The translations under genes were made by a program, and so were the position numbers. Shown one piece after another: positions 14,039 to 35,333 of a stretch of DNA of 64,000 nucleotides. The DNA is from Tricholomella constricta (taxonomy: Eukaryota > Basidiomycota > Agaricomycetes > Agaricales > Lyophyllaceae): positions 186,001-250,000 of the forward strand of contig JAACJP010000047.1 in assembly GCA_013368375.1 (NCBI GenBank), read 5' to 3'. The notes under the pieces are model-generated. The model was not told the origin of the DNA and searched no databases. It saw only the letters and a program-made list of their open reading frames with translations. Numbering within the stretch: position 1 is the first letter of the stretch; every line of letters starts with the position of its first letter.

Positions 14039-16074
14039 TCACCCCTCCACAGCCCCCTCGTCGAAGTCACTACCCGCGCGCTCTGGACCCTCGCCCTCCT
14101 CGTCGCTGGCATCATCGTCGGAACCCCGCCCCCCCACATAAGCCTCGTCGGCCGTGCACATCTGGTCGTAGCGATCTTGGAGGAGTTGAACAGCGACAGT
14201 CGTCTCAACGAACTGGTCGTTCAACGCTGCCAGGGTGGACCGAAGGATCTCCACCCGCGCCTCCGCCATTTGCGATTCCTGAACGAGGCTGTGGAGTAAA
14301 GCGTGTCGCGACGACAGCGCTCGCTCCACGTCGGCACGAGAGAACTGCGCGACCACGTCCGACGTCGCCTCCCGGTCCCGTCCCAACCCAACCAAGTCAG
14401 CCCCCGTCGGCAGACCAGCATCCCCAGAAATCCGTCCGCGTAGCAGGTAGTCAGACCCAAGGAAAGGCAACGCCTCGGTACGCTCCAGTGCCAGACGCCC
14501 TGCGGAAGCACCAATCCCAAACGGCCCGTCGGTCGCATACCGACCCCGACGCGTATCGGATGGCGACGAGACGATCTGCACCTCGCCATCGGAATTCTCA
14601 ACGGTGGGACGGGAGATGGCGCGACGACGCGGCCGCGACCCCTGCCCCTTGCCGCCAGCCGCGACCGACGAGACACAGCCTTTAGACTGGATCTTGCATC
14701 GTGCGCAAGGCCCACTGCCCGGTCGCTGGACGCACGTCTGGTTGGCGTGCACACAACGCTTGCACTACAGAAAAACACAACAAATTAGAAGGACACGCAA
14801 CGAGCAGGAGACCGACCCCGCTCACCGGAACGTCGCGCACGACCCAGTCGGGACACTCCACCTTGAACTCCTCCAACTTCAGCTCCCAGACGCTGGGGTT
14901 CGCAGTCGTCCTCCGCTTCTTCCCCTTCTCCGCGACCTCCTCTACGACCACGACCGACCCCTCGTCGTCCTCTCCCACCACACGCTTGCGTTTCTTGTCG
15001 GAGTCTCGGATGACCGACGAAGTCGCTTGGGCGGCACCTGCAAAGGGGATCAGGCGGCGCCCGCTCAGAGGGCAAAACATGGCGAAGGAACGAAGCACAG
15101 ACTCACCCGACCCCACGGGACGAGCAAGGGGACGGGACACCTATCAAACGACGTCAGGAAGTCAGCAATCCGACATTGCTAAAAGCGAACTCACCCCAGG
15201 CACCGGAAGGGCGGGCGACGCTGACGGACGACCACCACCCACGGACATGTACGCCACCTTGCGCGCACCGTCGCGCCTCTTACCCTCAACCTTCGGGCGC
15301 ACCGGTGAAGCCCCTTCTCCGACAGCGACAGGCGGCCCACTCAAAGCGACCTCGGAAACAGCGCGAGAGAGGGGCGCAAGAGGGTCCGGCAGAGGCTCCT
15401 CGACTTCACGCGCCATGCGCGCAGCCATCGCCGCGACACTGGCCGCCTCCGATACCTGACGGAAACCCTCTACCGTACGCGTGACCCCCTCGTTGCTATG
15501 GGCAGCGCCCGAAGCAGGCGCAGCGCTACCGGCAGAGCCAGCGACCACGGAACGACCGTCGGCCCCAACAGCAGAGGGCAGTCCCACACTCGCCTCGTCA
15601 TCCACGTCCATCGGACCCACTCCCTTGGTTAGCGCATTCGGACCGCCCACGGGCTCTTCTGGAGCCACCGACTGCGACCCACGAGTACCGACCTCCGACC
15701 CGAGGCGCAGACGTCGCTGCCGACGTCGGCGAATGTACTCGTCCTACACAAACAGAGCCAGCACCTCAGACAACAAACGGGTCCGACAGACCCAAGGGAC
15801 TCACCTCTGGCCGCAGACCAGCGAACTGCACACTCCACTCGCTATCCACACTCACGACGGCCCAAATGGCAGCCAGAGCCTCATCCTCATTGGGCCAGAC
15901 CTGCCGCTCCCCGCTGTCCACCTGGGCACGAAGGGACTCGACACCCTCTAAAATATCCTCGAGGACGACAGCGCGTTTGGCACGCGACGCGTCCGGCGGC
16001 AAAGAGCGCCATTCCTCCCAGTCCTTCCCCAGGTTGTCCAAGACGAGTGCGAGATCGGGAATTACGGGAGACAT
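14039..16074 (-). CDS. D1: antisense Zn2Cys6-cluster protein carried by element A1
   Basis: Four exons, 619 aa: 16074-15805, 15743-15195, 15140-14826, 14764-14039. All introns are GT-AG, 54-61 bp and phase 0. Exon 1 (90 codons) has a conserved DW-EWRSLP block and Trp71. Exon 2 is Ser/Ala/Pro-rich. Exon 3 has basic patches (KKRKR, GKKRR) that could be nuclear signals. Exon 4 opens exactly at the first cysteine of C-x2-C-x6-C-x8-C-x2-C-x6-C (residues 379-408), the spacing of GAL4-type Zn(II)2Cys6 DNA-binding domains, followed by a heptad-like helix (LHSLVQESQ onward) and an acidic tail. Likely a DNA-binding regulator; its targets are unknown. It lies antisense between pol and the 3' LTR of A1 and is intact. 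D4 is its shorter relative in A2. Confidence 0.75.
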
Positions 16075-16183
16075 GGAGGGAGGGAGGCAGGGAAAGAAAG
16101 GAAGAACTGACAACGACGACGCGTTGACAAAAAATTTCGCACCGCCACACCCTTCCCACGCCACGCACGCGCGACACCCAGGC

Positions 16184-16221
16184 CTGACTGAGGACAGTCA
16201 GCAGCTCAAGTAAGGAGGAGA
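16184..16221. promoter_or_regulatory. Palindrome plus polypurine tract upstream of D1
   Basis: CTGACTG-AGGA-CAGTCAG (16184-16201), then TCAAGTAAGGAGGAGA (16206-16221), 110-150 bp upstream of the D1 start. Three other copies have CCGACT arms; here a C-to-T change in the left arm is matched by G-to-A in the right arm, so pairing is kept. Confidence 0.6.
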
Positions 16222-16574: not shown

Positions 16575-17156
16575 CTAGCTTTCCGCGACACCCACTAGAA
16601 CTTCGCTAACTAACTCGGTACGGCGCGCCCGGAGTACGTCTAAGGCGGTAGACGTCGCTACGACCTCTTGATAGAGCTGGCGGATCGACGAGCGGAGGAC
16701 CTCTTGCCGCGACTCGAGGACATGAGAATCCCGAACCAGAGACTGTAAAAAGGAACGACGGGTAGACAGAGCGTGGTCCACACCGGCGAGATCGAAGCGC
16801 GACACAACCGACAAAGGCTGCACCGGATTTGAGTCGTGCAGATCCTCATCACCAGGAACGTCGGAGGTCAACGACGAGAGACTGGCGACCTGTTCCATCG
16901 TGAAGCGACGGGCGACAACCACCAAGTCATGATCATGGACTTGGGAGACCCCCTCCGGGAGAGCCCCAACTCCCGCATGCCCACCGACTGAACCCTCCTG
17001 ACTCTCCGACTCCTGGCGCTCGTCGTTGACGAGGTCTCGTTTACGCTTACAAGCCACAGGGGTTGACGCGACACGGGCAGCTTCCTCGTCTATCACCTTA
17101 TCTATACCATCCGCCAAACGGAGTCGCCGCTCGCGATGACGGTGCGTATAGTCATC
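16575..17156 (-). pseudogene. D2, 3' part (other part at 36502-36661)
   Basis: Second antisense gene of A1, split by A2. This piece runs from an acceptor (CTAG at 17157) as a single 194-codon exon to the stop at 16575. It starts DDYTHRHRERRLRL, matching the start of exon 2 in D1 and D4, has the basic CKRKRD patch, then jumps to the C-terminal helix block (VDHALSTRRSFLQSLVRD onward). The Cys6 cluster and the introns around it are missing, so there was an internal deletion in addition to the split. Non-functional as it stands. The first-exon half is at 36502-36661, with about 35 codons plus the intron 5' end lost in between. Confidence 0.7.
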
Positions 17157-17194
17157 CTAGAATAAAGGCGCCAATCGGACCACGAAAAACACAC

Positions 17195-17998
17195 TGTTGA
17201 TGACCGCGCACGTTTGTATGCCAAGGTCTCAACCCGGCGACAACCAAACCCGATTTGAAATTATCCTAGGAAACACCTTGCCCAGCCATTCGCAGAGAGG
17301 ATCCGGCCGTACCACGGAGTTCCGCACCCAAGAGCCACTACCGATCGCAAATCCCCTACCGATCATACATCCGACCCGACGCCTCGAGCCGATCAAAACC
17401 CCCTTTGCCGAGCCAAAGAGCGCCACACTCCCTAAAAAGCGTCGCGCGGTACCAAGCTTGGCGGCGCTTCTCTCAAATAAACCAGTAAAACACCTGCCTC
17501 ACCGGCTCGCGAGAGGCGAGTCGGTCGCATAGTATAAAAACATACCCATGTACTACCTACCTGCCCCAGTGAATTACAGCCCGTATTTTCCCTCACTCTC
17601 AGAGTTAATAGCTCAAAAACCGTCGTCTCTGCCGTCTCTGCACCATTCTCATCGTATAAACCGTCGCCACCGTCGTAAACCTCGTAACCGCCGTCTCTGT
17701 CGTCTCGTACTCGTCGCCCGAACCCGTGAGTTCTCCGTAATAAACCTCATTCGTCTCGTTGTCGCACAACCGACACCGAAAGTCGGTTACCGACCCGCTC
17801 CGCCTGGGAACGATCGTATTCTATCGCATCGCCGTCGGTACAACTAATTACGAGTCGGATCGTCTTTACTTTCATCAAACCACCACTTTCAAACCCTGCA
17901 CACTCGCGTGTTTGGGAACTTTTAACATTTCTCGCCCCCCATAGTTGTTAGTTGTTTTGTTGTTGTGCACAGCACCTACAGGCCTTCTAGCCCTATCA
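17195..17998 (+). repeat. A2 5' LTR, truncated
   Basis: Matches 35698-36501 of the 3' LTR. TATAAA at 17533-17538. Ends CTATCA. It lacks the 5' 233 bp that the 3' LTR has, so the U3 start is missing. Confidence 0.88.
17726..17944 (+). other. Candidate LTR/leader intron of A2
   Basis: GTGAGT donor, TTTTAAC branch-like site and pyrimidine-rich CCATAG acceptor, 219 bp. Splicing would join the LTR ORF that begins at ATG 17548 (178 nt, remainder 1) in frame with gag. The caveat is that ATG 17548 lies only 10 nt after the TATA box, possibly upstream of the transcript start. Confidence 0.45.
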
Positions 17999-20787
17999 TT
18001 CTGGAGCCCACCGCGAGGGTTTTAAAAGCCACCGCCGAACACGCAACCTCATTCCTCTTGCTCATAAAAACCTATGACTCGTCGACCATTCCGCCCGCAA
18101 CCCGACAAGAAGCTAAAGCCCGAACCCTCCGTGCCGAAATTCGCGCTGCTCTCGGACAAGCCGACACCGACTCAGAATCGCTCTCCCCGTTCTTCCGCTC
18201 AGTAACTCCACACCGCGCGATCCATAAGAACCTCAGCCCGCTCTTCTATAGCCCTTCGTCGACATTACCGTCGCCTACCCCGACCGATCAAGCACCGTTC
18301 CCCGAACCAACCGCGCAAACCGACCTAGCTTTCGACCCCTTTGCGTCGGAACCTCCTACCACCGATCAAGGAATTGAATTTAGACTCCCATACCTATCGC
18401 CCGCGACCCCAGAAATCTCGGATTCTTCTTCACCGTCGTATTCCCCCTCCCCGTCCCCTATCCCGAGACCAACACCACCTATCATGGCGCAACCACCAAT
18501 CATTGTAAAACCGATGCCCGCACGTGGACAAAGCTCAGCGCCGACGTTCGTGCCTGAACGCGCGCGTGAACTGCGCCGATATTTCTCGGACTTAAATTAT
18601 CTCTTCATCGAGTGTAACGTCGTAGATGAACAAGAGAAGAAAACGCACACTACGCGATACACCGACATCGATACCGCGGATCTGTGGGAGCAACTTGACG
18701 AGTTCGCAGTCGGTACTACATACGACGATTGGCGAAAAGCGATAATGGTGCTTTACCCAGGCGCAAGCGAAGAAAGAAAATATTCAATGGCCGACCTCGA
18801 CTACCTGATCAGAGAACGACACCGACTCGGGATCCAGTCGAATAGTGACCTCGGGGAATATTACCGACAGTTCCTTTCTGTTACCCAGTTCCTTGTCAGC
18901 AAAAGCCGACTTTCGATAAACGAACGCGACCGCCAATTCCGTCGCGCGTTCCAGTCCGACCTATGGTCAAAGATCCATCGCAGGCTCGAGATCCTAAACC
19001 CGAACCACCATCCCGATGACCCCTACGCCACAGAAACCGTTCGCGCTGCGGCTGAACATATCCTCCACGGGACAAATGCCGCCCAACAACAGGAAGCGCT
19101 ACCGGGCGCACCCCCACAAGTTACGATCGCGCCAAGCGGGTCGTTAACGGGCGCAACCAAGTCGCCTAGCACGGGACAGCCCCTCAAATTAGAAGAGCTC
19201 TACGAAAGAATCAACTTGTTAGAACAACATATCCAACGCTTAGGACAAGACAAAGGAGGCGACGGCGGCCGACCGAACCAGTCACCTAATGACAACTGCC
19301 ACTTCTGCGGTGGTGAAGGACATTATATCCCTAACTGTCCCATACATCATACATACGCGACCGAAGGACGATGCCGACGAACCGACGACAACAAGATAGG
19401 CCTACCAAGCGGCGCGCGCATACCGGCGGGAACTCCAGGTCGATACATAAAAGACAAGCTAGACGAGTGGCACAGGCGCAACCCCGGCCAAATGGCGACA
19501 GGACAGCTATCAGCAAACGCGAACCCGACCGAAAGCATGATGTTGGAAATACTACAGTTTAACGACGTCACCGACCATGACCTAAAAATCGAAGATCACA
19601 TGATCGTGTTAGAACGAGAACTCAACACCCTACGCGCAAGGAAAGAGGTATTCGACGGCGTAGAACTGATTAGCCGCGCGCCTCAAAAGCGACCCGTCAC
19701 GGTCGAAACCGTTCAAGACGCCGACCAACCAAGAATTGCACCGGTCAACAAGTCAGCGCCCGCGTCGCAGCCCGTCTCGGACGCGACGAAAGGCCAAGCC
19801 AAGGCTCCCCCGCCGCCGTCCAACATACCCCTAATCCCCAGTACCAAGACCGATGCCACAATCAATGCCCGCGACCAGACTCCCGTACACCCTTTCTCTA
19901 ACATTCCTGAGAACCGATACGTCCCCCCCACCACGCGAAACTTAGCCGCCACGGAGAAGGCGAAAGCCGACAGTGCGTACCGCACACAGGCGCCCATTAC
20001 AGATCCGACCAAATCAACGACTCTATTCGAACGCGCACTCGATGCCACCATACCGGTCACAGTTCGGGAACTCTGCGGGGTAGCACCAGAGGTTCGCGGA
20101 AAGTTTAGAGAAGCTAATACGCCGAAGCGCATCGTCGCCAGCAACCTCGCAACTGTGTACCAAGAAGTCCCCACGTCGGCGTTTATCGAGGAACTCGACG
20201 CGCTCCCCTGCGAGCCCAACAACGACAACGCGACGCCACCGCCCGGAGCGCTAGTCACCGGCGACATCTACGACACGTATTACCAGACCCTACTACCCGG
20301 CGAACACCCGGACCGATTGATCGTCGCAATGGAATCGCATGCACTCAGATCGATCATGATAATGGTCGACGCAAGGGAACAGATAGAAAGCATCGTCGAC
20401 AGCGGATGCCAAATCATCGTCATGTCGGAGGAAGTCTGCCATGGGCTAGGAGTCAAATACGACCCGACTATCGTTCTCCAGATGCAATCAGCGAACGGAA
20501 CAACCGACCCGTCGCTCGGTCTAGCAAGAAACGTACCCTGTACGATAGGCGACGTCACGCTCTACCTCCAGATGCACGTCATTCGCAACCCCGCATACGA
20601 TATACTCCTCGGCCGTCCGTTCGACGTACTTACTTGTTCTAACGTAAAGACAAGATCTGCCGACGATACGATCATAACTATCACTGACCCAAACACTCGA
20701 GAGGTCATTGCGATACCGACCTTCGCGCGTGGACAACGTCGCCGCCCCAAGACCGACGTAAATTTTCGTATACTCTCGAGGAAATAA
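17965..20787 (+). CDS. gag: Element A2 Gag-protease
   Basis: Intact 940-codon frame from the LTR/leader junction to TAA at 20785. The frame is open from 17926; the first internal ATG in frame is 18484 (MAQPP), but the upstream region is conserved with A1, so the true start is uncertain (17965 is only a GTG). Gag block at about 18540-19080 (RRYFSDLNYLF, WRKAIMVLYPGASEE). One zinc knuckle (CHFCGGEGHYIPNC) at about 19300. Aspartic protease near the C terminus with VDSGCQ and ILLGRPF. The protein ends at a -1 frameshift site, so Gag-protease would be the major product and the Pol fusion the minor one. Packages RNA and processes the polyprotein. Confidence 0.88.
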   Translation: MHSTYRPSSPIILEPTARVLKATAEHATSFLLLIKTYDSSTIPPATRQEAKARTLRAEIRAALGQADTDSESLSPFFRSVTPHRAIHKNLSPLFYSPSSTLPSPTPTDQAPFPEPTAQTDLAFDPFASEPPTTDQGIEFRLPYLSPATPEISDSSSPSYSPSPSPIPRPTPPIMAQPPIIVKPMPARGQSSAPTFVPERARELRRYFSDLNYLFIECNVVDEQEKKTHTTRYTDIDTADLWEQLDEFAVGTTYDDWRKAIMVLYPGASEERKYSMADLDYLIRERHRLGIQSNSDLGEYYRQFLSVTQFLVSKSRLSINERDRQFRRAFQSDLWSKIHRRLEILNPNHHPDDPYATETVRAAAEHILHGTNAAQQQEALPGAPPQVTIAPSGSLTGATKSPSTGQPLKLEELYERINLLEQHIQRLGQDKGGDGGRPNQSPNDNCHFCGGEGHYIPNCPIHHTYATEGRCRRTDDNKIGLPSGARIPAGTPGRYIKDKLDEWHRRNPGQMATGQLSANANPTESMMLEILQFNDVTDHDLKIEDHMIVLERELNTLRARKEVFDGVELISRAPQKRPVTVETVQDADQPRIAPVNKSAPASQPVSDATKGQAKAPPPPSNIPLIPSTKTDATINARDQTPVHPFSNIPENRYVPPTTRNLAATEKAKADSAYRTQAPITDPTKSTTLFERALDATIPVTVRELCGVAPEVRGKFREANTPKRIVASNLATVYQEVPTSAFIEELDALPCEPNNDNATPPPGALVTGDIYDTYYQTLLPGEHPDRLIVAMESHALRSIMIMVDAREQIESIVDSGCQIIVMSEEVCHGLGVKYDPTIVLQMQSANGTTDPSLGLARNVPCTIGDVTLYLQMHVIRNPAYDILLGRPFDVLTCSNVKTRSADDTIITITDPNTREVIAIPTFARGQRRRPKTDVNFRILSRK
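18002..18019 (+). other. Candidate primer-binding site of A2
   Basis: TGGAGCCCACCGCGAGGG three bases after the LTR, identical to A1 (335-352). The tRNA was not identified. Confidence 0.4.
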
Positions 20788-20822
20788 GTGGAGATCACGG
20801 CGATCTTGCACTCCTCCTCGAG
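20760..20822 (+). promoter_or_regulatory. -1 frameshift signal in A2 (heptamer plus stem)
   Basis: A AAT TTT at 20760-20766, 8-nt spacer, then an 8-bp stem: CTCGAGGA 20775-20782 with TCCTCGAG 20815-20822. Two more pairs are possible across a small bulge. The same parts are in A1 (9436-9498). The pol frame is open through the overlap. Confidence 0.75.
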
Positions 20823-23800
20823 TACGACCCACTAAGCTATACCCCGACTGTCCTTTCTTTCTGCGAACTACCGACCGAATTTAATAGCGACGCCACCTAC
20901 GACGCGCAACTAACCTCACTCTACGTCGCGGCAGCCGAACTAACCACACCAGCAATCGCCGATCAATCCGTTAATACCAGCTCTACCCCTCTTGAACGAA
21001 CAACCCTCTGCACTATTTTACCAAACAACGAGCGCCATAGTGGACGCCACACCCAAACTCTGACCAACGCCGCCACAGACACCTTCGTTGTGAAAATCAA
21101 AGGCGTACAAACCAAAAAGAAGTACAAACCAGTGGCACAGAAAGTACGATCGATCGTAGCAAGTTGTCCCGACCACTTCCGCATCGAGCGCAAAATATTG
21201 GGCGACCCTCTCGCCGACATGCCGACTCTGCTCCCCAACCCGCCACCTTTCCAACCCACCGGCCGCTACACTCTAGAGCAAAAAGACGACTTAGACCGTG
21301 AACACCCAGACTTCTTAACGCCCTCCGAACGAGCAATTATGCACGACCTCATGTGTAAGCAGAATCTCGCTTTCGCATGGGACGATTCTGAACGCGGTAG
21401 TTTTCGATCGGATTTCTTTCCCCCTATCGATATCCCGGTCATCGCACACACACCCTGGATCGAACGAAATATCCCCATACCGCCTGGCATCTACGATGAA
21501 GTTTGCGACATTATCAAAACTAAACTCGCCGCCGGCGTTTACGAACCGTCCAACTCCAGCTACCGATCGCGTTGGTTTTGCACTCTAAAGAAAAATGGCA
21601 AGTTCCGCCTCGTCCACAGCCTCGAACCGCTCAACCGAGTAACCATCTGACACTCGGGTGTCACTCCGATACCAGACCATGTCGCTGAACAATTCGCCGG
21701 TCGCATTTGTGGCGCAATGTTAGACCTGTTTGTCGGCTACGACGAACGGCTAATCGCACCATCGTCGCGCGACCTTACCACTTTCCAAACACCTTTCGGC
21801 GCGTTACGCCTAGTCACCTTACCTATGGGCTGGACCAACTCCGTCCCAATCTTCCACGACGACGTTACTCACATCCTGCAACCGGAGATCCCGGACTATA
21901 CACTGCCTTATATCGATGACGCCGCTATAAAAGGACCAGCAACTTGGTACCCCGACCCGGACACAGGATTGCCGAAAACACACCCCGACAATGCCGACGT
22001 GCGCTTCGCGATCTGGGAGTTCTTCAACAACGTCAACCGAATCCTCCAGCGCATGAAGTACTGCGGCGGCACCTTCTCCGGCAAGAAGCTGATTTTATGC
22101 GCACCACAATTTAAAGTCCTCGGACACGTCTGCACGCCCAATGGTCGCATACCCGACGCGGACCGACTCGCTTTACTGCGTAATTGGAAGTCGTGCGCCA
22201 CCCTATCAGAGTTACGCGCGTTTTTAGGAACGGTCGGAGTACTAAGGATATTCGTCAAAAACTTTGCTCATCGCGCACACCACCTTGTAAAACTAACCCG
22301 CAAGGATGCAGTCTTCGAGTTCGGTCCCGACCAGACCGCAGCGCAGCGTGACATCGTGGAGGCGATCGCAGAAGCGAAACCCCTCGTACCCATCGACTAC
22401 GCCTCGGACGACCCCGTCATCCTGGCCGTCGACACTTCCCACATAGCAGTCGGATTCTACCTCTGTCAAGCCGACCCCGTCGATCGGAAACGACGAAGAT
22501 ACAATCGGTTCGGTTCCATTACACTGAACGACCGCGAATCACGATTCTCTCAACCAAAACTCGAATTTTACGGCCTATTTCGGGCGCTTGGCGCTTTACA
22601 ACTGTACGTTATAGGCGTCCGCAACTTGGTCGTCGAAGTCGACGCGCGCTACATTAAAGGAATGCTCTCCAACCCCGACATCCAGCCGTCAGCTTCCATA
22701 AACAGGTGGACCGTATCTGTCCTCATGTTCCACTTCGAACTGGTCCATGTTAAAGGCACGTTCCATGGACCCGACGGTTTGTCCCGGCGCCCACGACAAC
22801 CCGACGATCCAGCCGACAACTACGACGCAGAAGAAGCCGACTTCGAAGATTGGGTCGACCGGATGCAAGGACTCATGCACATTATTCAACCGCTGCCACA
22901 GCCGCCGTCGCCATTGCGTGTGTGCCAGATCTTCGCTATGGCTCAGGTCTCAAGTAAGGAGGAGATGGTGGCAGTATACACGGACGCGGTACCACCAGAC
23001 TCAACGACTCACGAACTCGCTACCGAGTCCCCACGACAACCCAGAATCCGTACCGACGACGATACAGGAATAACCGACCCAAATGCGAATTCGACCAACA
23101 TGTCATACGACAACGTGCCCAGGACCGACGCCGCTAAAGCCCAAGACCAACGCATAGATGCGGTTAGACAATGGTTGACCAACCTCGAACGGCCAGAAGG
23201 CATGTCCGACGATCAGTACGCCACCTTCATCCGATACGCCACAGGGTTCTTCCTAGACGGAACACGACTCTGGAGAAGAGATAGCCAAGGCGCACATAAA
23301 CTAGTCGCCCGCCCCAACGCACGACTAGAGATTCTGCGATCCGTCCACGACAACCTCGGACACAAGCGCTTCTACGCGACACGCGCAACCTTGCTCAAAC
23401 GCTTCTGGTGGCCTAATGTTCGGGCCGACGTCGTGTGGTTCGTACAGACATGTCACATATGCCAGATCCAGCAAACGACCAAGGTCCTGATCCCCCCGGT
23501 CGTTGCGACACCCGCGCCACTGTTTGCAAAAATGTACATCGACACTATGCACCTACCGCCGTCGAATGGTTTCAAATACATTGTCCAAGGTCGTTGCTCC
23601 TTGATTCACTTTCCTGAATGGTGCGCGCTCCGAAAGGAAAACAGTCGCACCCTCGGCGATTGGATGTATGAAGACATCATCTGCCGGTGGGGCGGACTGC
23701 GCGAAATCGTAACCGACAACGGTCCAGCCTTCATCAAAGCCGCTGAACACCTCACAAAGAAATACCACATACACAACATTCGGATCTCAGGTTATAACTC

Positions 23801-24530
23801 CAGAGCCAACGGACTCGTCGAGCGGTCCCATTTCGACGTTCGACAGTCCCTTTTCAAAGCCGCCGACGGAAACGAAAGTAAATGGTCGCAATCAGCTTAT
23901 ACGGTTTTCTGGGCCGAACGGGTCACAATCCGCAAACGAATGGGATGCTCCCCCTACTACGCCGCGACAGGTACTCAACCCCTTCTGCCGCTCGATATCG
24001 TTGAAGCCACGTACCTCCAACCCCCACCCGACTCTATCCTGTCCTCCACCGACCTCTTGACGCGACGCGCGATCGCCTTACAAAAACGAACGACCGACCT
24101 AGAGCGACTACATTCAGACGTATACGCGGCGCGAAGACAAGCGGCGATTCACTTTGAACTTAAACACGCCAGAACCTTACGCGACTATAACTTTAAACGC
24201 GGAGACCTCATCCTGATGCGCAACACGAAAATCGAGAAGTCGCTCAACCGCAAAATGCGATCTAGATACCTGGGACCGCTCGTCGTGATCTCGCGCAACC
24301 GCGGGGGCGCCTACATCCTCTGCGAACTGGACGGCACCGTCTTACACCGGCCTGTAGCAGCGTTCAGACTCGCGCCCTACTTCGCGCGAAACAACATCCT
24401 CCTACCCGACAGCGCCCTGGACATAGACACCAAGCGTCTCAGAGAACTGGAAGCAACAACAATCACCGACGACGAAGACCGACCCGAAGTCGTAGACGAC
24501 GACTCCGAATCGGAAGACGAGCAAAACTAG
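20763..24530 (+). pseudogene. pol: A2 pol, one nonsense codon
   Basis: 1,256 codons in the -1 frame from the shift site to TAG at 24528. Reverse transcriptase (KKNGKFRLVHSLEPLNR, GALRLVTLPMGW, YIDDA), RNase H (AVDTSHIAVGFYL, KLEFYGLF, VEVDARYIKGM), integrase HHCC (HDNLGHKRF, CHICQ) and D, D, E catalytic residues (YIDTMHLP, VTDNGPAF, GLVERSHFD). A TGA at 21648-21650 cuts the RT; A1 has CGA in the same column, so this is a single C-to-T nonsense change. Everything after it stays open. It is defective by one codon unless the stop is read through. It ends with an acidic tail (DDDSESEDEQN) shared with A1. Confidence 0.88.
22950..22966 (+). other. Candidate central polypurine tract in A2 pol
   Basis: TCAAGTAAGGAGGAGAT, identical to the 3' polypurine tract. 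It lies between RNase H and integrase, coding for SSKEE in the linker. Confidence 0.6.
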
Positions 24531-24886: not shown

Positions 24887-25082
24887 CTACTTCCCAGCCA
24901 CCAGGTTCCCTTTCACCTCCTCTCTGTCGCCCTCCTCGCCGGTCCCCATCGCGTCGCCCCCCGAATCTGTGCCACTATCGCTCTCCGAGACCTCGACACC
25001 GTCTGCCCGCATCAACTGGGAACGTCGCCGTCGGAGCGCAGTGATCGCGCTCATTGTGCCGGCGAATTGTTCACACACCCGG

Positions 25083-25272
25083 TGGAGTAGTCTGACTTGT
25101 TCTTCCGGCTTCGTTCTCGATATGGGATGATCTCTGTTCGCTGAGGATCTGATGATCTCCTCCTCGGTGTATCTACTATGCTGACTAATGATCCCAAGCT
25201 CTTGCCAAACATGTACAAACACCATTCGTGCGCCTCCTTCGCGCTTGGAGTGGCGCTGGCGCGCCTACTCCA
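25083..25272 (-). repeat. C 3' LTR with preceding polypurine tract
   Basis: 190 bp. On the minus strand it is preceded by a GGAGGGGG tract (about 25277-25286), the likely plus-strand primer. Confidence 0.88.
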
Positions 25273-25328
25273 TGTGCCCCCTCCAAACCAAGCGACGTCC
25301 CCGTCGCGTTCCACCAAACCGTCCTGCG

Positions 25329-28300
25329 CTATCCGTCCTCTTCCGTCGTTTCCCAGCCATCCTCGTCCTCCTGTTCTCTCTCCCGTTCCACCCCCGCGCG
25401 TTCTGCCTGCGCCCTCTCCTTGTCCTCCTCCGCTGCCCTTCCCATCACTTCCGCCTGCCGCGCCGCCATCTCTGTGCCCGCCCGTGGTTCGAAACCCCGC
25501 AGCCTCCGCGCGCTAAAGTTCCCGTCCAGCGCCACTCCTTCCAGTGTCTCCAGTTTGTACGAATTGGCGATCCGTTCCGTTACCCGTCGCGGGACGGACC
25601 ATTTCGGTAGTAATTTCCTCTCCGTTTTGAACGTGTAATCTAGATCACTTCGGTAGACCTGCACCAATTGACCTCTTTGGAATGTCACCTCACCGTGAGT
25701 TTCCGCTAATACGCGCTTGTCGAACGCAGTTTTTCGCTTCGCTGCGTGCTCTACCGCGGCGGCATAACCATCCAGCCGCTGCTGTGTCGTGTAGGCGATT
25801 TGGGTGGCGACGTCGTCCGTCTTCAGGATTGATGTGCTCTCCGCCGTGCTCGACTTGGGCGTGCCGATGACCAGTCCGAGCAGTAGTTCCTTCGGCGTGT
25901 GGTTGAATGCTGGTAGCATGCGCCAGTTCAGAATGCGGATCGCTTCGTCTAAATGCTTCGGCCATGTTTTCGGTAGGTCTTCGGTGGACATGGCCTCGCA
26001 TTCGGCGTCGTCTAAGTCGGGAGCGCAGAGACGTTTCAAGACATGGAGTAAGATCTTGTTCGTACCTTCGACCAGCCCATTCACCCATGGCGAATAGGCC
26101 GCGACAACGTGCGTCTCCGTGCCCCACTTCCTTGACCTCCTTGTTGTTGAAGTGTCGTCCGCCGTCGATCATGAACGCCTCCGATGGTGCGAAATCTTGG
26201 AATATGCGTCCCAGCGACTCGACCGTTGTCTTCGCCGTGCCCGCTGTTTTGTACTTGTGGGCCCACACGTGCTGGGAGTACGTGTCTAAGTACACCCCCA
26301 GGGTGTGGAACCCCCCCGTGCCGTTCGGTAATGACAAGTAATCGCCGACGAGGAGCTCGAAGGGGTGGCGACGCGTTATCGGGTTTAGTAGGGAATGCAG
26401 GTGGGTTCCACCGAAGTTCTTGCATTTGCCGCATCCCTTGATCCCTTCCATAATGGAGGCGTCAAGACCCGGGCTCCAGATGGTGTCGGTGAGTCTTCTT
26501 TTGACGGCGTCGCGTCCCCAGTGACCTCCCTTCAAGTGTTCCTCCCGTGCCAATTCCACCGCTTCGCCCCGCGTCATGCACTCCACGCGTGCCCTCGCCC
26601 TCGCTTTCGGTCCCCCTCCCACCTTGTAAAGCCGATCTCCCTCGACCATGTAATCCATGGCGCGATGCTTTGCCCGCCGTCGGACCCTCGCTGTGCTCCC
26701 CGTATCCAACTCGTGTAAGGAGTCGATCACCTCCAGGAACATGGGCTCGTTTGCGAACCGGTGGCGTAGCACGTCCACATCAGTTGTCTCCGCCACCCGA
26801 AAGATGTCGTGTATGAGTCCCGTCGCGGCTTCCCAATCCTCGCTCACATCCCACTCGCTACCGTCGCCTACCTCGTTTGGTCTGCCCTCCATGGCCCGGC
26901 TCAGACCGTCGGCGACGACGTTGGTGCGTCCCGGTACATGCTTGACGTCCACGATCTGGTGGGCTAGTATTCCGTCGCGCCAGCGTGCATGTGTCGCGCT
27001 CAGCTTATCATTGGTGAGCACGTCGCGTAGGGCCTGGCAATCGGTCACGACCTCGACGGGAAAGCCCCACACAATGTTTGAGAACTTGTCCAGCGCGAAC
27101 TTCAGCGCTGCGAACTCGAGTAGAAAAGGTTTGTACTTCCCTTCGGCCCGCGAGGTGCGTTTTGACGCGAAGCCAAGCGGGTGAAGTTTCGTTACTGTCT
27201 TTCCTCCCGGAAGCTCCGTCGTGAATCGTTGCGCCAGTACCGCACCGAACGCATCCTGGCAGCCGTCACTGGTAATGATGAAGTGCGTGCCATCCCACTT
27301 CGGTGCTCGCAGGACTGGCTCCGATGTCAACAACCTTTTCAGCTCGATGAATGACTTATCGTGTTCCTTCGTCCACCTGTCTGCGAGTTTCCAGCCCCCC
27401 ATCACCCTGCGGTACACGGACTTCGAACAACCCTTCGGCATCTCCACTTCACGAATGAGATCGCGCAGGGGTTTCTCGACCAAGGCGTAACCTTTGATAA
27501 GGTCACGGAACCAGCCTGTGAGCCCCAGGAACGCTGCTAGGTTCATAGCGTCCTCGGGAGTTTTCCAGTTGACGATCGCGGTGAGTTTCGTTAGATCGGG
27601 TTGTACGCCATCCTTCCCGACCGACGCGCCCGCAAACACGCCTGATGAGACAAAGAACTCTGATTTCGCCGCCGAAATCGACAGCTTCTTCTCTCTCGCC
27701 CTTGTGAAAAGCATTGTCATCTTCCTGATCATTTCGCTGAACTCGTTGGCGGCCATCCCGCCGTCGTCAATGAAGAGTTCTATCACCTCCTGCGTCAGGA
27801 GGTCGTGGAGACAATCCGCCGTCACGTTCGCAAACGTAGATGGCGCACCCGTGAGGCCAAATGGCATGCGCCGATACCAGAAGTATCCCCTCCCTTCGAC
27901 GTAAAATGCCGTATAGGGACGGGATTCCTCCGCCATCTCCACGGCGTAAAACCCAGACGCGAAGTCAAAGAGCGATATCCAACGGTGGCAACTTAGCTTC
28001 TGTTGTTTTGTCCTGATATCGCCCTGGGGCATCGGAGCGATCTCGGTGACCTTGTTTACCTCCCCGAAGTTTTGGCAAATCCGCCACTTCGGCGCTCCCT
28101 GCGGTTTCTCGTCGTCTGGTGTAGGTTCGCTTCTAGGCGGTATCTGGAACTGGGGGTCAAAGCCGTTGACCACGCACTGTTCGTTGACTCGTTGTTTGAG
28201 TTCCTCTAGCGTTAACCCCGTGCCTTGGTGGGCCTTCTGAGGAAGTGTGGTGGGCAAGACACACTTCACGTCATTCGGACTACACTGTTCGATGATGCCT

Positions 28301-29907
28301 GCCGCCAGCATCTCGTCTATTTTCTCGTGAAGGTATTGCCGCTGCGGGGGCGTTAGTGGCTTCTGTCGAATTCTCGATGAGAACTTAGCGTCGTCTGGCA
28401 CGTTCAACTTGTGTACTGCACCGTCGACTGTGAAGACTTCCCCCACCGACAAGGCAAATACGTCCGCGTACTCAGCGATTAGCTTGCGCACGGCGGCATG
28501 CTCGTCCGCTGTGAGGTCGTCCCCGATCTTCACGCTGCGCAGTATCTCCTCGATTCGTTCCAGTTTGAACGGGTTCGTTTTGCGCGTGAAGATGCCCTCC
28601 TTGTCGTGTCGCAGCTCGTCGACGGGTATGTCGGCGCCCGCCTCGTAGCCGTTTGCCTCCTCCCCTTGTAGGTGGTATATGGGTGTCGTTTTGTTCGAAC
28701 CGGTCATTGGTCCGTGTGCTAACGTCCCGCGCCGTTTCCCAGTCCTTGATCGCGGTATTCCTGGTACGTTGCGTGTTCGTGTGTGGAACCGCCGATGACG
28801 CCTCTGACCTGCGCCTCGCCATGTCGCCGCCTTCCTTGACCTCTTCCCCGTGCTGGGTCTGGAGTCCGCAGTGTCCGTGTTGCTCGATGTGCTCTGCTCC
28901 ACGGGCGGCTGCTGGTGCTGGTCAATCTGTACGACTGGTGTCGTGGCCGTGGTGTCAGAGGTTGGGACTCGCCTTATTGGGGGTTGACCTGCAGGTACTT
29001 CCCGCCCCCCCATCTCGGTTTCGTGTAGCTCTCCTCCGGCGTTTTCTCCCGTCGTCTCCCCATCTCCTCTGTCCTCCACGTCCTCTACCCATGCGGATCG
29101 CCGTGTTGTGCGTTGGGTAGGTCCCTTATCCAGTCCGTTTTGCTGTTCGCGCTGGTGTGGTTGTGCCTCGGGCTGGTCAATCAATGTTATGGGGTCGAAC
29201 GGGGTGTGTGTGACTTGCCCGGGGGGGGGTTGGTCTGCAGCTTCGGACTGCCCCCCCGATGCTTCCGCCCGCTTCTCCTCTGTGTCATCCAGGACCGTTT
29301 CCACCAATTCGGCTGGACCTTGGCAGACGTTAGGGTTCTCGTTGCGAAGCGTGGCGCATGCATTGTGGCTGCCGATCTGCACTTGATCGAGTCGGTACCG
29401 GTGAACCGCGTCGAACGCCAGCATAAGGGGCTTTCCGAACAGGAATTCCCAGCTCCCACCGCTGTCAAATACCTCGAAGGCGCCCCTCGCCTGTACGCCC
29501 GCCACTTCCATGAGCCCTTCCCATGCGGCTTCGGCGTTCACCACCTTTCCATCCGCCATCCGTAGGCGTCGCGTGGAAGGTCCCCAGCCGGTGAGTTGCT
29601 CTTTCACTTTCGCGAATACCCGGCTGCACATGGCCCCTACCATCGCACCATCGTCGAATGTGGCCACAACGCGCACTCTCCCGCCATCCAGGCCCAGGAT
29701 TTCCACGGTGTGCAGGAAGGGTGCCGCTTCTGGCGATGTCGGCGTAATCACTGGTGCTCGACCCACGGCGTAGACATCCATAATGTATGCATTTTCTCGA
29801 ATTACATTTTTTTCTGCGTCTACGTCGTGAGTATCTGCGTCGTCCCCGTCCACCCCTCGGCGCTGGGCGGGGACCCTTGCATCCTCTGCTCTCTGCTGTT
29901 GGGCCAT
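25329..29907 (-). pseudogene. pol: Element C Pol, frameshifted in integrase
   Basis: Polyprotein read from 29907 leftward. The N-terminal protease-like region has FDDGAM, a D-D-G where most retropepsins have D-S/T-G. Reverse transcriptase follows: WISLFDFASGFYAVEM, YRRMPFGLTGAP and IELFIDDGG, where the usual YxDD reads FIDD. Then RNase H (TSDGCQDAFGAVLAQ, VVTDCQALRDVL) and integrase (GGHWGRDAVKRRL, CGKCKNF, VGDYLSLP, MIDGGRHFNN). Near 26122-26145 the frame shifts by one: the remaining integrase (SPWVNGLVEGTNK, D/E part and C-terminal domain) continues in another frame down to 25329. Gag stops at 29919, nine bases before this ATG, so downstream re-initiation or frameshifting is needed; I saw no shifty heptamer there. 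Confidence 0.88.
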
Positions 29908-29918
29908 CCGTTGTGCAT

Positions 29919-31187
29919 TTAGTCGGATGGCCCTTCCCCATTTCCCTGGCTCTCGTCGATTTCCTCTATGTACGCCGACGGTTCGACCGCGGCGACGCCC
30001 CCATAGTCGTCGATCACGACATAGCGAACGGGTGCAGCGAACACCACGCGTAGGATGCTACGGCATATGGCACGCCAGTCGGCTTCCCTGATGTTGAGCT
30101 TGCGATCGGCGGGGAGAGGGCATCGGGGTGCGATATGTCCTGCCTGACCGCACCCGAAACACTCGTTGGAGTTCGTTGGGAGCGTTCCCGGTCGCAGCGG
30201 GTACGGCGTCAGCTCAGTCACCCGAGTGTTGGCGCCGTACTTCTCGATCCAGGCGTGTTGCTGCGCCTGGTGCGCCACTCGGCCCGCCTCGGTGTCGGGG
30301 TGGTGGACCATTAGGGCGATGCGTGCACGTAGCGCCATGCGATCGGCCTCCGTGGGCGGTGGTCTGGCGGTCCTGGCACCTGTCCCGCCTCCTCCACGTC
30401 CTGCGCTTCCTCCCCCTGCCGTCGGCGTGACTACCGCATAGGACAGGTTCCCCTGCCCCCCTCCAGTGGTGAGGAATGGATTGGCGTCGGTGGTGGTGAT
30501 CTGACGAGAGCGCTGCGGCGTCGCTGCGATGCTGGTATGGGCGAGCTGCGTGCGGATCGCGCGCGTGGGTGAGCTCATCGCCTCCAGTGTCCTCATGCGC
30601 TCGTCGATCCTCTTCTGCCTCTCCCTTTCCTTCCTCAACTCGGCGGCCCCATTGCGGATGTGGTCGATGTCGACCGCGCGAACCGCCGCCAGAAAGGTCG
30701 TCCAGTTGGCTGGCGTGCCGACGATCCTGTCTCGGATGAGGCTCGGTAGTCCGCGCCGTACGAGGCCGATGTAAGTGGACCCTGTCATATGTCCGGCCCT
30801 GCTTACCAGTGCGCCCATTTTGTCCGCCCACGCGATATGCGTGTAGACCTCCCTGCCCGCCACCGTTTCCTTCAGCCCCATGGTATCTTCCTTCAACTGC
30901 AGCGCGAGGATCTCCTCCTCATATTCCATCGCGGTCTTTCTGGCAACCGTCGCTCTCGGCCATCGCGCATGGAACTCCTGTACAACTGCATCCCAGTCGT
31001 CTCGAACAACCTGTGGTAGTGCGGCGTACCATTCGTCCGCCTCGCTGTCTGCATGCAGGTAGTTGATGAAAAGTTTGCACTTTACATCGTCGGCCTTATC
31101 TCCCATCGCTCGGTTGAAGGCGCGGAAAAAGTCTTGCCCGTTCTCCTTGGGGCGATCGCCCCAGAAGGGCTCGACGTTGGCCGGCAT
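29919..31187 (-). CDS. gag: Element C Gag
   Basis: Intact 422-aa protein. It opens MPANVEPFWGDRPKENGQDF; the block DFFRAFNRAM to ADEWYAALP followed by W-AVVQEFHARWPRA is the retrotransposon capsid type common in Agaricomycetes elements. A Gly-rich linker (about residues 245-275) precedes a CCHC knuckle (CFGCGQAGHIAPRC, about residues 342-355). The ATG is about 320 bp inside the 5' LTR; that leader (31188-31510) has no ORF worth naming and carries the primer-binding site. The stop TAA overlaps an ATG (TAAATG) and is close to the pol start, so pol may be reached by re-initiation. Confidence 0.9.
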   Translation of the reverse strand: MPANVEPFWGDRPKENGQDFFRAFNRAMGDKADDVKCKLFINYLHADSEADEWYAALPQVVRDDWDAVVQEFHARWPRATVARKTAMEYEEEILALQLKEDTMGLKETVAGREVYTHIAWADKMGALVSRAGHMTGSTYIGLVRRGLPSLIRDRIVGTPANWTTFLAAVRAVDIDHIRNGAAELRKERERQKRIDERMRTLEAMSSPTRAIRTQLAHTSIAATPQRSRQITTTDANPFLTTGGGQGNLSYAVVTPTAGGGSAGRGGGGTGARTARPPPTEADRMALRARIALMVHHPDTEAGRVAHQAQQHAWIEKYGANTRVTELTPYPLRPGTLPTNSNECFGCGQAGHIAPRCPLPADRKLNIREADWRAICRSILRVVFAAPVRYVVIDDYGGVAAVEPSAYIEEIDESQGNGEGPSD

Positions 31188-31492
31188 ATCGTCGTCTGAA
31201 GCGGTGGAGATGGGAATCGGGGGTGGCGATGTGGGTGCTGTGGGGCTTCGACCTCCAAATCCGTATGAATCGGGGCTTTCGGACCGGGACGTGTCTGTTG
31301 TGGGCGTCGGAGGTGACAGCGCGGGTGTCTGATCGCGGAAAGCGAGGAAGCGGCCCTGTGCGTCTCTTGGTAGCTGGTGGCAGCGTCGCGGCGCCAGTTT
31401 CTGTGTCGTGGGCTTCTTTCCTTCGTTGTTTCGTGATCCGTGCGTGCATTGCGTTGCCTTGCTTGTATTACTTGTGTAGCGTAGAGAAAGAA

Positions 31493-31508
31493 CTTGCTGT
31501 CGTCACCA
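31493..31508 (-). other. Candidate primer-binding site of C
   Basis: On the minus strand TGGTGACGACAGCA begins two bases after the 5' LTR, as expected for pairing to a tRNA 3' end (CCA). tRNA not identified. Confidence 0.55.
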
Positions 31509-31510
31509 GA

Positions 31511-31700
31511 TGGAGTAGTCTGACTTGTTCTTCCGGCTTCGTTCTCGATATGGGATGATCTCTGTTCGCTGAGGATCTGATGATCTCCTCCTCGGTGTAT
31601 CTACTATGCTGACTAATGATCCCAAGCTCTTGCCAAACATGTACAAACACCATTCGTGCGCCTCCTTCGCGCTTGGAGTGGCGCTGGCGCGCCTACTCCA
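31511..31700 (-). repeat. C 5' LTR
   Basis: 190 bp, same as 25083-25272. Flanked on the right by CCGG and the continuation of the D3 exon. Confidence 0.9.
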
Positions 31701-33619
31701 CCGGATAAGACTCCAGCGGGCGATTTCTTGACGAGATTCCCAAGCCTGCGACTCCTGCATGAGCGATCGCAACAGAGCGTGGTGCGACGAAAGGGCTCGG
31801 TTGACGTCCGCCAGGGGAAGGGAAGCGACACGCGACAGGTCAGTGGCGTACCCTAGGCCGTCCAAATCGCGGTTGCGGGGGAGAGTAATACCGTCGGGTA
31901 ACTGACCGCCATGAACGGACCACGTACTCATACCGGCCGACTCCTCCACGGCGTACAGCGCAGACTGATAGGCCCCCCCAGTCGGCCCGTAATCTTCGTC
32001 GCTGAGTGCGGTCAAGTCGCGCGCTCGACGACGTGCGACAGATGGCGACGCGACTTCCACGTCCTCCTCGGAGTCCTCCACAACGGACTTGGAGGCGACG
32101 CGGCGCCGACTCCGGAGACGCGAATTTTTGACCACCCCCGCGTCGGCCTGGTGCCTCACCGTCTCACACCGTTTCGAGAAGATCTTACACCGCGCGCAGA
32201 TCCCGCCTTCTGGCTTCTGGACGCAGTCGACATCGGCGTCGGCGCAACGGTCGCACTGCGACGGCATCAGAATACGACTGCCCCGACGAAACATACGACG
32301 ACTTACCGGCTCATCACGAATGAAGTAGTTTGGATGGGCGGCCTTGAACAATTCAAGTCGCTCCAACCACTTGAAATCAGCAGCGGCCTTTCGGGCCGCA
32401 GTAGTCTGCTCGCGCTTTTTGGCCGCCGCTGTTCCCTTCTTCCCAGGCACCTTCCCGACCTTGGCCGCCCTAGCCGCCTTCTCTACCTTGACCACCGCTT
32501 CCACTGCTTCGGCTGCGGACCCCTCGCCTTCGTCGCTGACGGCGCGCTTCCGCTTGCGGCTGGCTGACGCTGGCACCGTGTCGATGAGAACGATGGGCGA
32601 CCCGCCTACCGAAAATGTTAGAGGAAGCCCGTCAGACGGACGGAAGACAACGCCCGAACCAAGCACGAACTCACCCGTGGTACCGACTTTTGAACGACCA
32701 CCTACGGCCGAGATGTGGGGTAGAGTAACGGGCCGGTACGCGGGGTCGCGCACACTCGTTACCTTGGCCTTCACCTTGGCCTTCGCCTTGACGGGAGCCG
32801 AAACGGTGCCCGGCGCGGAGGGTCCCTGGTCAAGCACAACAATGTCGGGCGTCGGAGAGGAGCGCGACATGAGGGGGTCCCGCATCGGCTCCAGAGCTTC
32901 CCGCCCCATTCGCTCAGCCATCGCCGCGACCCTAGCCGCTTCTGACCCCTGCACAAAATCCACCACGGTCTGGGTGTCCAGGCCAGTCGTGCTGGCAACG
33001 TCGCTCCCCGATGCACCCGGCCCCGGAAGGGGGGTGGCGTCACCAGCGGTCGAACCGGGCGGAGCGGCGCTGCCAGTCGTCGAGGGAACCTCTGCTGTAG
33101 GAGCCGCCGAACTCGGTGCCGTCGCGGACACAGCCGTCGGCTCAGCGCTAACCACGGACAGACTGGGACCCATAGGTGGGGCCGCCACATTCGTCAACGC
33201 CAACGGGTCCTCGGGCGCTACCGATTGCGACGCACGTACGTTGGCCGCCGCACCCAAGCGTGCACGACGCACGTGGCGACGGCGCGCGTTTTCGCTCTAA
33301 AAAGACTCAATGAGCCGACCGGACAGTGGACCAGTCGACCGCGACGCACCTCAGGCTCCAGACCGCCGAATAGCCCTTTCCATTCCGCATCCCCTTCTAC
33401 AACGGCTCAGACGGCCCGCAGCGCAGCCTCCTCGTGAGACCATATCCACCATGGCCCCTCGCCCTCCTGGGCACGCAACGCCGTGATTCCCTGCAATAGC
33501 CCCTCGAGAATGGCAAGGCGCGCCTCGCGTGGCGCATTGTCAGGCAGCGCTCGCCAATCGTCCCAGTCGCCCTGCAGATCCTCGAGAATGAGCGCGTAGT
33601 TGGGAGGAAGGTCAGCCAT

Positions 33620-34030
33620 GCCTACGGACGGTGTGGGAGAGACAAAAAGGGGGGAACCGAGGAAGACAGAGGACCCTTATAACCTCGACGCGCCGTCAAA
33701 TTCTGTTGCACTGCCACCGCCATCCCACGCCACACACGCGTCAGTTCTGGAATTTTCTCGACCGGACTCCGGGCCGACTGAGGACAGTCGGCATTTCAAG
33801 TGAGGAGGAGACATGAACTACAGATCGAACGACAGCCGACGCTGGCAGCCGACACCGCCGACCACAAAACCGAACGACACAACGAACCGACCTGCGCCAC
33901 CTAAAAAATGAAAAGCTTGAATTATAAAGAACGACCCAATTTTAGGGCCCGAACAACAAAATAGGTATATACGGAATACGCGACCGATAACGAACGCAAC
34001 CCGACCGCAAAAAACACGACAAACCCGAAG
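33620..34030. promoter_or_regulatory. D3 upstream region with palindrome and polypurine tract; D4 3' flank
   Basis: No gene. CCGACTG-AGGA-CAGTCGG at 33774-33791 and TCAAGTGAGGAGGAGA at 33796-33811 lie 155-190 bp upstream of the D3 start. CCCAATTTTAGGG at 33935-33947 lies past the D4 stop and resembles the pol/D hairpin. The order matches the gap between D1 and D2. Confidence 0.55.
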
Positions 34031-35333
34031 TCAAGGCGACAAACCCTCGCCACCATCGTCGCGTACGCCACCGTCAGCACCGCTCCCACTACCGCTGCCT
34101 CCACTCCTCAAATTACCCATCGCAGACGCACCAACTAACTCTGCGCGCCGGGCCTGAAGCAAGTCAAGGGCCGACGACGTAGACACGACCTGCTCGTAAA
34201 GCTGACGGGACGACGAACGCATGATCTCTTGGCGCGATTCAAGGACTTGAATTTCCTGGACCAAAGTACGCAAGAAAACGGTGCGTGCCGATAGCGCCCG
34301 ATCTACATCTGCAAGACCGAACCGCGAAATAACCGACAACGGCTGGGTGAAGCCCGAACCACGCAAATCTTCGTTACGAAGGAAGTCCTCAGGGCGAAAC
34401 ACCGGACCCTGAAAAAGGAGACCCGCACCCCGGTCTACCGAACCCGCAGAACGAGTTACGACAAGGCGCTGAGCGGCCCTTGCCAGATCGGGCGAACGGA
34501 CCTCGTCGAACAGCGGATGGGGTATACACGCGTCGCAAAAGTGTCCCTCTACTGAACACGACACGAACTGGTGCGGAGCTGGCCGAAACGACCCCACTTC
34601 GTTCATCTCGCATCGTCTAGATTGAATCTCGCAAACCGCGCAAACCTCAATGTCGCTGCGCTGAATGCAGTCCAAGCCGTAGCTCACACAACGGTCGCAC
34701 TAGCCAATAGATGAACAGAAGAACAAGGACGCAGGAGGACCGACGACTTACCGCTTCGCTACGAGTGTAATGCTCAGGGTACTCCTTCTTGAATTCCTCG
34801 AGACGCTCCAGCCACAAGCGTTGTCGCATCCCTTGTGCCGCCAATACCGACTCCCCGGAGATCTCGACGACAGACTCCTCTTCGTCCCCGTCCCCAACAG
34901 AGGAAGCGCATGAACGCTCCCGAACGACAGACCCTGCCTCTTCTTCAGCAAAAGCGGCGTGCATACGCGCCCGGGTGACCGTCTCTCGGTAAGGGTAATC
35001 GGACTACCAACTAGCGCGTTAGTACGCTACAAAAACGACCAAATAACCAGCGGGCGAACGCACACTCGGTTCTAGATCCGCGAACCGCTCGGACCATTCG
35101 GGGTCGGACTCGATCGTAGACCATATGTTAGACAATGCCTCTTCCTCGCCGCTCCACATCCAACGCCAGGGACTAGCCACCGGCGACCTAAGCACGCCGA
35201 GGCTGTTCGACAAGTATTGTAGCACACGGGTGCGCGCGTAACGAGGGGAGTCGGCCGACAGCGATTGCCATTCGTCCCAGTCTCGTTCCAAGAAGCGGAG
35301 AGTGCGCTGGAGATCGACAGGAGGTCTCGACAT
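34031..35333 (-). CDS. D4: intact antisense Zn2Cys6-cluster protein of A2
   Basis: Three exons, 396 aa: 35333-35064 (90 codons), 35003-34752 (84), 34699-34031 (222 plus stop). Both introns are GT-AG and phase 0, and the exon borders equal those of D1. Exon 1: MSRPPVDL, DWDEWQSL, Trp71. Exon 2: SDYPYRETVTRAR, an acidic patch, and WLERLEEFKKEYPEHY, matching the D1 and D3 exon that precedes the cluster. Exon 3 starts on Cys175 of C-x2-C-x6-C-x8-C-x2-C-x6-C (175-204), then a helical block (TLVQEIQVLESRQEIMRSS onward, coiled-coil-like) and a Gly/Ser/Asp tail. It lacks the long Ser/Ala region of D1. The start is 132 bp from the 3' LTR, so the LTR could supply an antisense promoter. Function inferred from the cluster only: a probable sequence-specific regulator. 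Confidence 0.75.

Follow-up and report, generated by a model that had tools for sequence, protein, structure and literature searches.

Antisense genes situated between pol and the 3′ long terminal repeat (LTR) are known from several retroelements. The plant elements Retand, Grande and RIRE2 carry conserved antisense open reading frames at this position, referred to as aORF-3R, which have been proposed to be regulatory, and many of those of Retand contain TRP28, a predicted DNA-binding domain (as outlined in PMC11963269 and PMC7264820). The fungal gypsy element Boty of Botrytis cinerea is described as harboring an extra antisense gene, brtn, between pol and the 3′ LTR (Zhao et al. 2011, as cited in PMC7264820, PMC8365987 and PMC4227169), and the HBZ gene of human T-cell leukemia virus type 1 (HTLV-1) is presented as an antisense regulatory gene of a retroelement (PMC11963269). 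Here, we analyzed a 64,000-nucleotide stretch of the basidiomycete Tricholomella constricta, an agaric in the family Lyophyllaceae (assembly GCA_013368375.1, contig JAACJP010000047.1, positions 186,001 to 250,000), referred to as the window. In both copies of a Ty3/gypsy element found there, A1 and A2, we observed two antisense genes of one family, designated D, between pol and the 3′ LTR, just as the initial annotation had proposed. Its further remark that it knew of no fungal gypsy element described in this manner does not hold when taken broadly, because Boty carries brtn, and the arrangement is thus not new to fungi. As far as these sources describe it, Boty differs from A in having one named gene instead of two and an ascomycete host, a distinction that is drawn from descriptions and not from sequence. 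In the open-licence literature searched, we found no description of a pair of zinc-cluster antisense genes, of their splicing, of the six-cysteine cluster or of the shared palindrome reported below.

Antisense D genes behind pol in element A

D1 to D4, the D genes of the window (coordinates in Table 1), are preserved to different degrees. D4, the distal gene of A2, is intact and encodes 396 amino acids, as annotated: its three exons are open, every exon border is in phase 0, the introns are of the GT-AG type with a TACTAAC box within intron 1, the zinc (Zn) cluster stands at the start of the last exon, and the gene starts 131 bp from the A2 3′ LTR. D1, the proximal gene of A2, had also been listed as intact (619 amino acids); an in-frame stop (TGA, 33409-33407) interrupts its exon 1, and a nested element, B, splits its last exon. 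Conversely, D3, the proximal gene of A1, had been listed as broken and reads open from 16074 to 14039 across five exons with GT-AG borders. D2, the distal gene of A1, is indeed broken, its exon 1 being severed at 36502 by the A2 junction. It also lacks a Zn exon, and L044, another copy from this subfamily, has none either; judging from the two copies compared, absence of the cluster from the distal gene seems to characterize the subfamily. The 90-codon exon 1 annotated for the family was found in D4 and D3, and an alignment of these two with 13 more exon 1 frames, taken from seven other copies, spans 90 columns and is gap-free.

A search of the 44-Mb T. constricta genome with the A1 integrase region yielded 103 matches, of which 101 were used to count D positions, two fragments short of the pol end being left out. 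Among the D matches listed, to which all such counts refer, a proximal antisense D match lies behind pol in 76 of the 79 A copies that reach the pol 3′ end, usually 0.3 to 0.5 kb beyond it, and a distal D is also present in 66 of the 79, usually at 2.5 to 3.2 kb; 10 further A matches are short of the pol end and not included in the 79. Distances of 7.8 to 9.8 kb occur for three of the 66 distal matches, namely those of the window copy, where B intervenes, of a copy on contig C37, where the match belongs to a neighboring copy, and of a copy on C24, where its assignment is uncertain. One of the three copies without a proximal D, on C6, lies 2.6 kb from the contig end. The D-bearing copies form two diverged subfamilies, and a 3′ LTR was found behind the D genes in seven of eight fetched copies. 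It should be noted that the copies are not fully independent, as there are contigs that duplicate one another and the arrangement of the window recurs on C6. The antisense position annotated in the window thus recurs across the A copies. A D gene was found at that place in none of 12 more distant gypsy matches (36 to 53% identity); the D match located 7.8 kb beyond one of them, on C9, is part of the A copy that follows. Reading five of the 12 regions revealed neither a frame with the cysteine pattern nor a tblastn D match below an E value of 0.016, and in three of the five a 3′ LTR follows close behind pol.

The initial annotation had named A copies lacking D, combined with D genes occurring alone, as the sign of a separate inserted element, and this pattern was not found. 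Nevertheless, some D matches, 11 of them distal and 3 proximal, have no assigned pol match, which would be in line with D being either an element of its own that inserted there or a host gene that was captured passively. Several of them, compared by eye, are found next to A LTR ends or where a contig begins, and the constant location in 76 of 79 copies over two subfamilies speaks against such an origin, which we regard as the least probable of all the explanations considered here.

Both exons examined across many copies bear the mark of purifying selection. The distal Zn exon exhibited a pooled ratio of replacement to silent differences (pN/pS) of 0.317 (pS 0.165, pN 0.052) among 28 distinct copies, 26 of which are open and 2 of which contain stops, and exon 1 a pooled ratio of 0.473 (median pairwise 0.27) among 23 distinct frames, with stops in 1. 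Read in the wrong frames, the distal Zn exon gave 0.96 to 1.43 in four of five frames, and the two exons together 0.90 to 1.43 except in the one frame of the opposite strand whose silent positions are shared (0.39 and 0.58), with stops in every copy in each of the wrong frames. Smaller samples yielded 0.21 to 0.41 for the proximal D exons (two or three sequences each), 0.47 for the Zn-less distal exon (one pair) and 0.13 for the D2 exon 1 fragment (one pair; 13 silent and 6 replacement changes). Since pN/pS of pol is 0.07 (one pair), D evolves faster than pol, yet it is constrained. Divergence is higher in the D introns (0.146 and 0.165) than in exon 2 (0.105), and the splice sites are kept. 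Since the D genes lie antisense to the sense RNA at its 3′ end, the region might instead work as an antisense RNA, by interference or as double-stranded RNA, and not via proteins; pN/pS ratios of 0.13 to 0.47, frames open in most copies examined and conserved introns make this very improbable. Collectively, the position counts, the pN/pS ratios and the conserved splice sites revealed D as spliced antisense genes under purifying selection, and they are almost certainly genuine genes of the element. In their position and in being under purifying selection, they also agree with what defines the plant aORF-3R.

Several A loci deserve separate mention. On C6 (1432006-1446726), the nested order of the window is repeated (A1 pol, D genes, A2 pol, B LTR) and then ends, perhaps as an allele or a duplication. 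On C11 (898254-904671), a distal D lies between LTR ends that are approximately 6.4 kb from each other, and no pol match between them is among the matches listed, possibly a non-autonomous derivative that keeps D. At C61 83400-89400 (L046), an A copy in which a distal D gene was looked for and not found, the NCBI protein D9615_010527 merges a DUF6534-annotated stretch with a D3-like Zn exon and is likely a gene-prediction fusion within the A copy.

Beyond this genome, a search with the full D4 protein returned none of 7,994 candidates at an E value of up to 1, and the sole match of the Zn-exon alignment among 7,995 candidates was the annotated protein of T. constricta itself. The same protein database contains 1,403 pol relatives; such elements are therefore common there, and intron-free gene calling may hide D. 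No D relatives were found in the viral contigs searched.

The six-cysteine cluster and the class of the D proteins

The Zn exon opens on its first cysteine, as annotated, with the spacing C-x2-C-x6-C-x8-C-x2-C-x6-C, and the six cysteines are invariant in all 19 Zn exons aligned. The Zn2Cys6 domain (Pfam PF00172) of fungal Gal4-type factors follows the pattern C-x2-C-x6-C-x5-12-C-x2-C-x6-8-C, which the D spacing fits in 19 of 19, and such factors usually carry basic residues between Cys 2 and Cys 3. D proteins consist of a 90-residue N-terminal domain, a variable linker, the six-cysteine cluster (except in the Zn-less distal gene of one subfamily) and a long C-terminal helix, the helices being predicted. 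The N-terminal 90 residues are predicted to be all-helical, and the C-terminal helix may form a coiled coil. In structure comparisons, residues 1 to 39 resembled Gal4 and Ppr1 weakly, and the match to Put3 was also weak.

Other observations weaken the initial assignment of D to the GAL4-type proteins. The Pfam profile Zn_clus touched only 1 of the 19 members (E value of 0.041, 14.4 bits versus a cut-off of 21), so that none reached the cut-off, and it found no match in the pieces of D4, D1, D3 and D2 at E values of up to 1. Moreover, basic residues between Cys 2 and Cys 3 are absent from D4, D1 and D3, and the best Foldseek E value of 3.2 is not significant. Because the profile score stays below the cut-off, we classify D as Zn2Cys6-like and not as a member; the original assignment draws on the cysteine spacing and a weak similarity. 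D also shares with the Gal4-type factors a long predicted helix after the cluster, but differs in a linker of approximately 100 residues between cluster and helix and in being encoded by a retrotransposon.

The D proteins can also be set apart from those of the other antisense genes. TRP28 (PF04195) was detected neither in the 19 Zn exons at E values of up to 10 nor in the D4, D1, D3 and D2 pieces (E value of up to 1) or 15 exon 1 frames, and, unlike the plant aORF-3R, D combines a six-cysteine cluster with introns and a shared upstream palindrome. Similarly, the D pieces, 19 Zn exons and 15 exon 1 frames gave no Pfam match to the basic leucine zipper (bZIP), which distinguishes D from HBZ.

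CCGAC sites and the proposed role of the D proteins

In the window, every one of the four D genes is preceded by a palindrome, CCGACTGAGGACAGTCGG; when at most 3 mismatches are allowed, there are 4 matches, compared with 0.12 expected. Together with a purine tract, it constitutes a 38-bp motif. All 18 D genes examined, of which nine are proximal and nine distal, carry this motif 93 to 155 bp ahead of the ATG, with 0 to 5 mismatches. The pattern CCGACTGNNNNCAGTCGG occurs at 109 places in the genome, compared with 0 for the control, and of the 50 distinct places listed of these 109, 49 are within 2 kb of a D match. At the distal genes, the purine tract directly adjoins the 3′ LTR in the fetched copies and, for this reason, is most likely the polypurine tract; the proximal copy of the motif was probably duplicated along with the D gene.

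This proximity admits an explanation that does not involve binding of D to the motif. The palindrome and purine tract could be a plus-strand priming signal, with the 3′ tract and a second, central copy, while D would act elsewhere, e.g., in nuclear import, packaging or integration. In line with this, a near-identical tract and palindrome precede nine of nine proximal D genes examined in addition to the tract adjoining the LTR, and the palindrome, as read from the sequence, could form a hairpin in RNA of either sense; because it adjoins the polypurine tract, priming could account for its conservation. However, priming explains neither the retention of the palindrome beside both purine tracts nor the enrichment, elsewhere in the LTR, of the palindrome arm, CCGAC, and we consider it rather unlikely.

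The CCGAC/GTCGG sites number 11 to 14 per LTR in five A2-type and 13 to 14 in two A1-type LTRs, compared with approximately 4 to 5 in shuffled sequences, and 0, 0 and 1 in the LTRs of three distant elements and 0 in that of B, all of which are much shorter. In four A LTRs, their density reaches 10.5 to 13.5 per kb, in contrast to 1.0 to 3.6 in six host loci. The LTR 5′ parts of the two subfamilies (first 489 and 572 bp) barely align, with 54% global identity; nonetheless, CCGAC is the top 5-mer in both, with 10 separate sites in A1 and 9 in A2, of which 2 share a column. Site number is thus kept while position has shifted, the pattern expected of selected binding sites.

We propose that the D proteins would be dimeric, sequence-specific DNA-binding proteins that recognise the CCGAC/GTCGG sites of their own element, the palindromic CCGAC pair before each D gene serving autoregulation and the single-site clusters in the LTR controlling sense transcription. 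In our estimate, the chance that D proteins are DNA-binding regulators acting on these sites is about even. From the sequences, we infer expression, zinc binding, dimerisation, DNA binding, the choice of CCGAC as the site, and the regulatory role together with its sign. That the element encodes its own regulators, as had been suggested, therefore holds insofar as the D genes belong to the element, regulation being the proposed part.

Besides the profile scores below the cut-off, the missing basic residues and the structure comparisons described above, a number of findings count against this proposal. The 5-mer comparison covers two subfamilies; CCGAC ranks 4th and 11th in the LTR 3′ parts, and ACCGAC ranks 34th in the A1 LTR 5′ part. 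The full palindrome was not found in the LTR, its best scores in four LTRs being matched by 7 to 32 of 60 shuffles. The CCGAC excess runs throughout element A, and in pol it is phase biased, with 23 of 25 sites in one phase, so that codon use can explain it there. Finally, CCGAC is likewise 2.4-fold in excess in 6.9 kb of sequence next to a distant gypsy element (L054).

Site density and the turnover of position at constant number would also suit anti-silencing factors that bind clustered CCGAC and free A copies of CpG methylation or repressive chromatin. The analogy is with VANC of the Arabidopsis VANDAL elements, described as an element-encoded protein acting via dense short motifs in its own noncoding DNA (PMC5735166). 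The likeness is one of analogy only: as that source presents it, VANC belongs to other proteins and elements, and its function was shown, whereas D is known from sequence. The coding-region CCGAC excess, moreover, is partly due to codon use, and an anti-silencing role of this kind appears improbable. Present sequence data do not distinguish activation, repression and anti-silencing. Returning to D as regulators of their own element, one may tentatively envisage, as a possibility that we rate well short of even, a self-recognition system in which two antisense spliced zinc-cluster proteins would bind CCGAC in the LTRs and in the palindromic pairs as an autoregulated switch or anti-silencing circuit, the Zn-less distal partner perhaps being a dimer partner or a brake.

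Nested elements, insertion sites and significance

The window contains a nest of LTR elements, with B inside A2 and A2 inside A1 (Table 1).

Table 1. Positions in the window of elements A1, A2 and B, the D genes and their upstream motifs
Feature	Position	Strand	Remarks
A1 5′ LTR	end at 331		
D3, proximal antisense gene of A1	14039-16074	-	exons 16074-15805, 15743-15195, 15140-15107, 15037-14826, 14764-14039
Palindrome and polypurine-tract-like motif upstream of D3	16184-16221	-	
D2 C-terminal exon, distal antisense gene of A1	16575-17156	-	no Zn cluster
Element A2	17195-36501	+	within A1
A2 5′ LTR, incomplete	17195-17998	+	99.5% match to 3′ LTR end; first ~233 bp missing
A2 gag-protease and pol frames	17926-24530	+	open reading frames; Pfam protease, RNase H, integrase zinc domain
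D1 3′ end past B insertion	24887-25075	-	
Nested gypsy element B inside D1	25076-31700	-	LTRs 25076-25272 and 31504-31700; CCGG both flanks
D1, proximal antisense gene of A2, broken	31701-33619	-	exon 1 33619-33350, exon 2 33296-32307, Zn exon 32255-31701
Palindrome and polypurine-tract-like motif upstream of D1	33774-33811	-	
D4, distal antisense gene of A2, intact	34031-35333	-	exons 35333-35064, 35003-34752, 34699-34031; 396 aa
Palindrome CCGACTGAGGACAGTCGG upstream of D4	35427-35444		
Polypurine tract (most likely) adjoining A2 3′ LTR	35451-35464	+	boundary set from other copies
A2 3′ LTR	35465-36501	+	1037 bp; 14 CCGAC/GTCGG sites
D2 exon 1 fragment	36502-36661	-	ended by A2 junction
Palindrome and polypurine tract (most likely) upstream of D2	36800-36837	-	adjoining A1 3′ LTR
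A1 3′ LTR	36838-37828	+	991 bp; 14 CCGAC/GTCGG sites

The A2 LTRs were delimited from the length of full LTRs, approximately 1,037 to 1,046 bp as measured on other copies, which places the 3′ LTR as listed and leaves the 5′ LTR without its first part; no target-site duplication was seen at the ends of A2. The protease, RNase H and integrase zinc domains of A2, in gypsy order and flanked by LTRs, identify a Ty3/gypsy element; in the pieces searched with Pfam, the integrase core model stayed below the cut-off and the reverse transcriptase model was unmatched. The pol frame of this copy is broken by a stop at 21648-21650, and many other A copies have open pol frames of up to 1295 amino acids. In two of the LTR pairs fetched, the LTRs agree from end to end at 99.9 and 100%. 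A recently active Ty3/gypsy family is the best explanation for the A elements. A 474-bp direct repeat, 100% identical, at 1410-1883 and 7286-7759 probably represents the LTR pair of a further element that inserted into A1.

The A insertion sites were centered on CG, which makes up 9% of the window dinucleotides. Among 100 listed of 187 A LTR 3′ flanks, the 58 not followed by the primer site comprised 52 NCGN and 6 NCAN, and among 79 5′ flanks, the 41 not preceded by the purine tract comprised 40 NCGN and 1 NTGN; positions 36502-36505 provide an example in the window. Three fetched A copies had 4-bp duplications (CCGC, CCGC and CCGT), and a fourth (L050/L042) had CG on both sides without a duplication. 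Element B, which contains no D match, lies at CG in four of four flanks other than the primer site, CCGG twice (duplicated loci) and ACGC twice, in comparisons of the window site at 25072-25075 with copies on C11 and C58. Because B, without a D match, also sits at CG, CpG targeting is not tied to D, and the idea that D proteins steer integration to CpG is unsupported. Flanks of three distant elements were GCAC, ATAG and one with no clear duplication; for a fourth (L062/L057), an LTR pair was sought and not found.

Antisense genes after pol had already been noted in plants and in Boty. Element A provides a fungal family of dozens of copies, some of them very young, whose additional proteins evolve under selection and for which there is a candidate DNA site. 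With D under selection and such a site at hand, the role of antisense retrotransposon proteins therefore becomes testable by simple assays.

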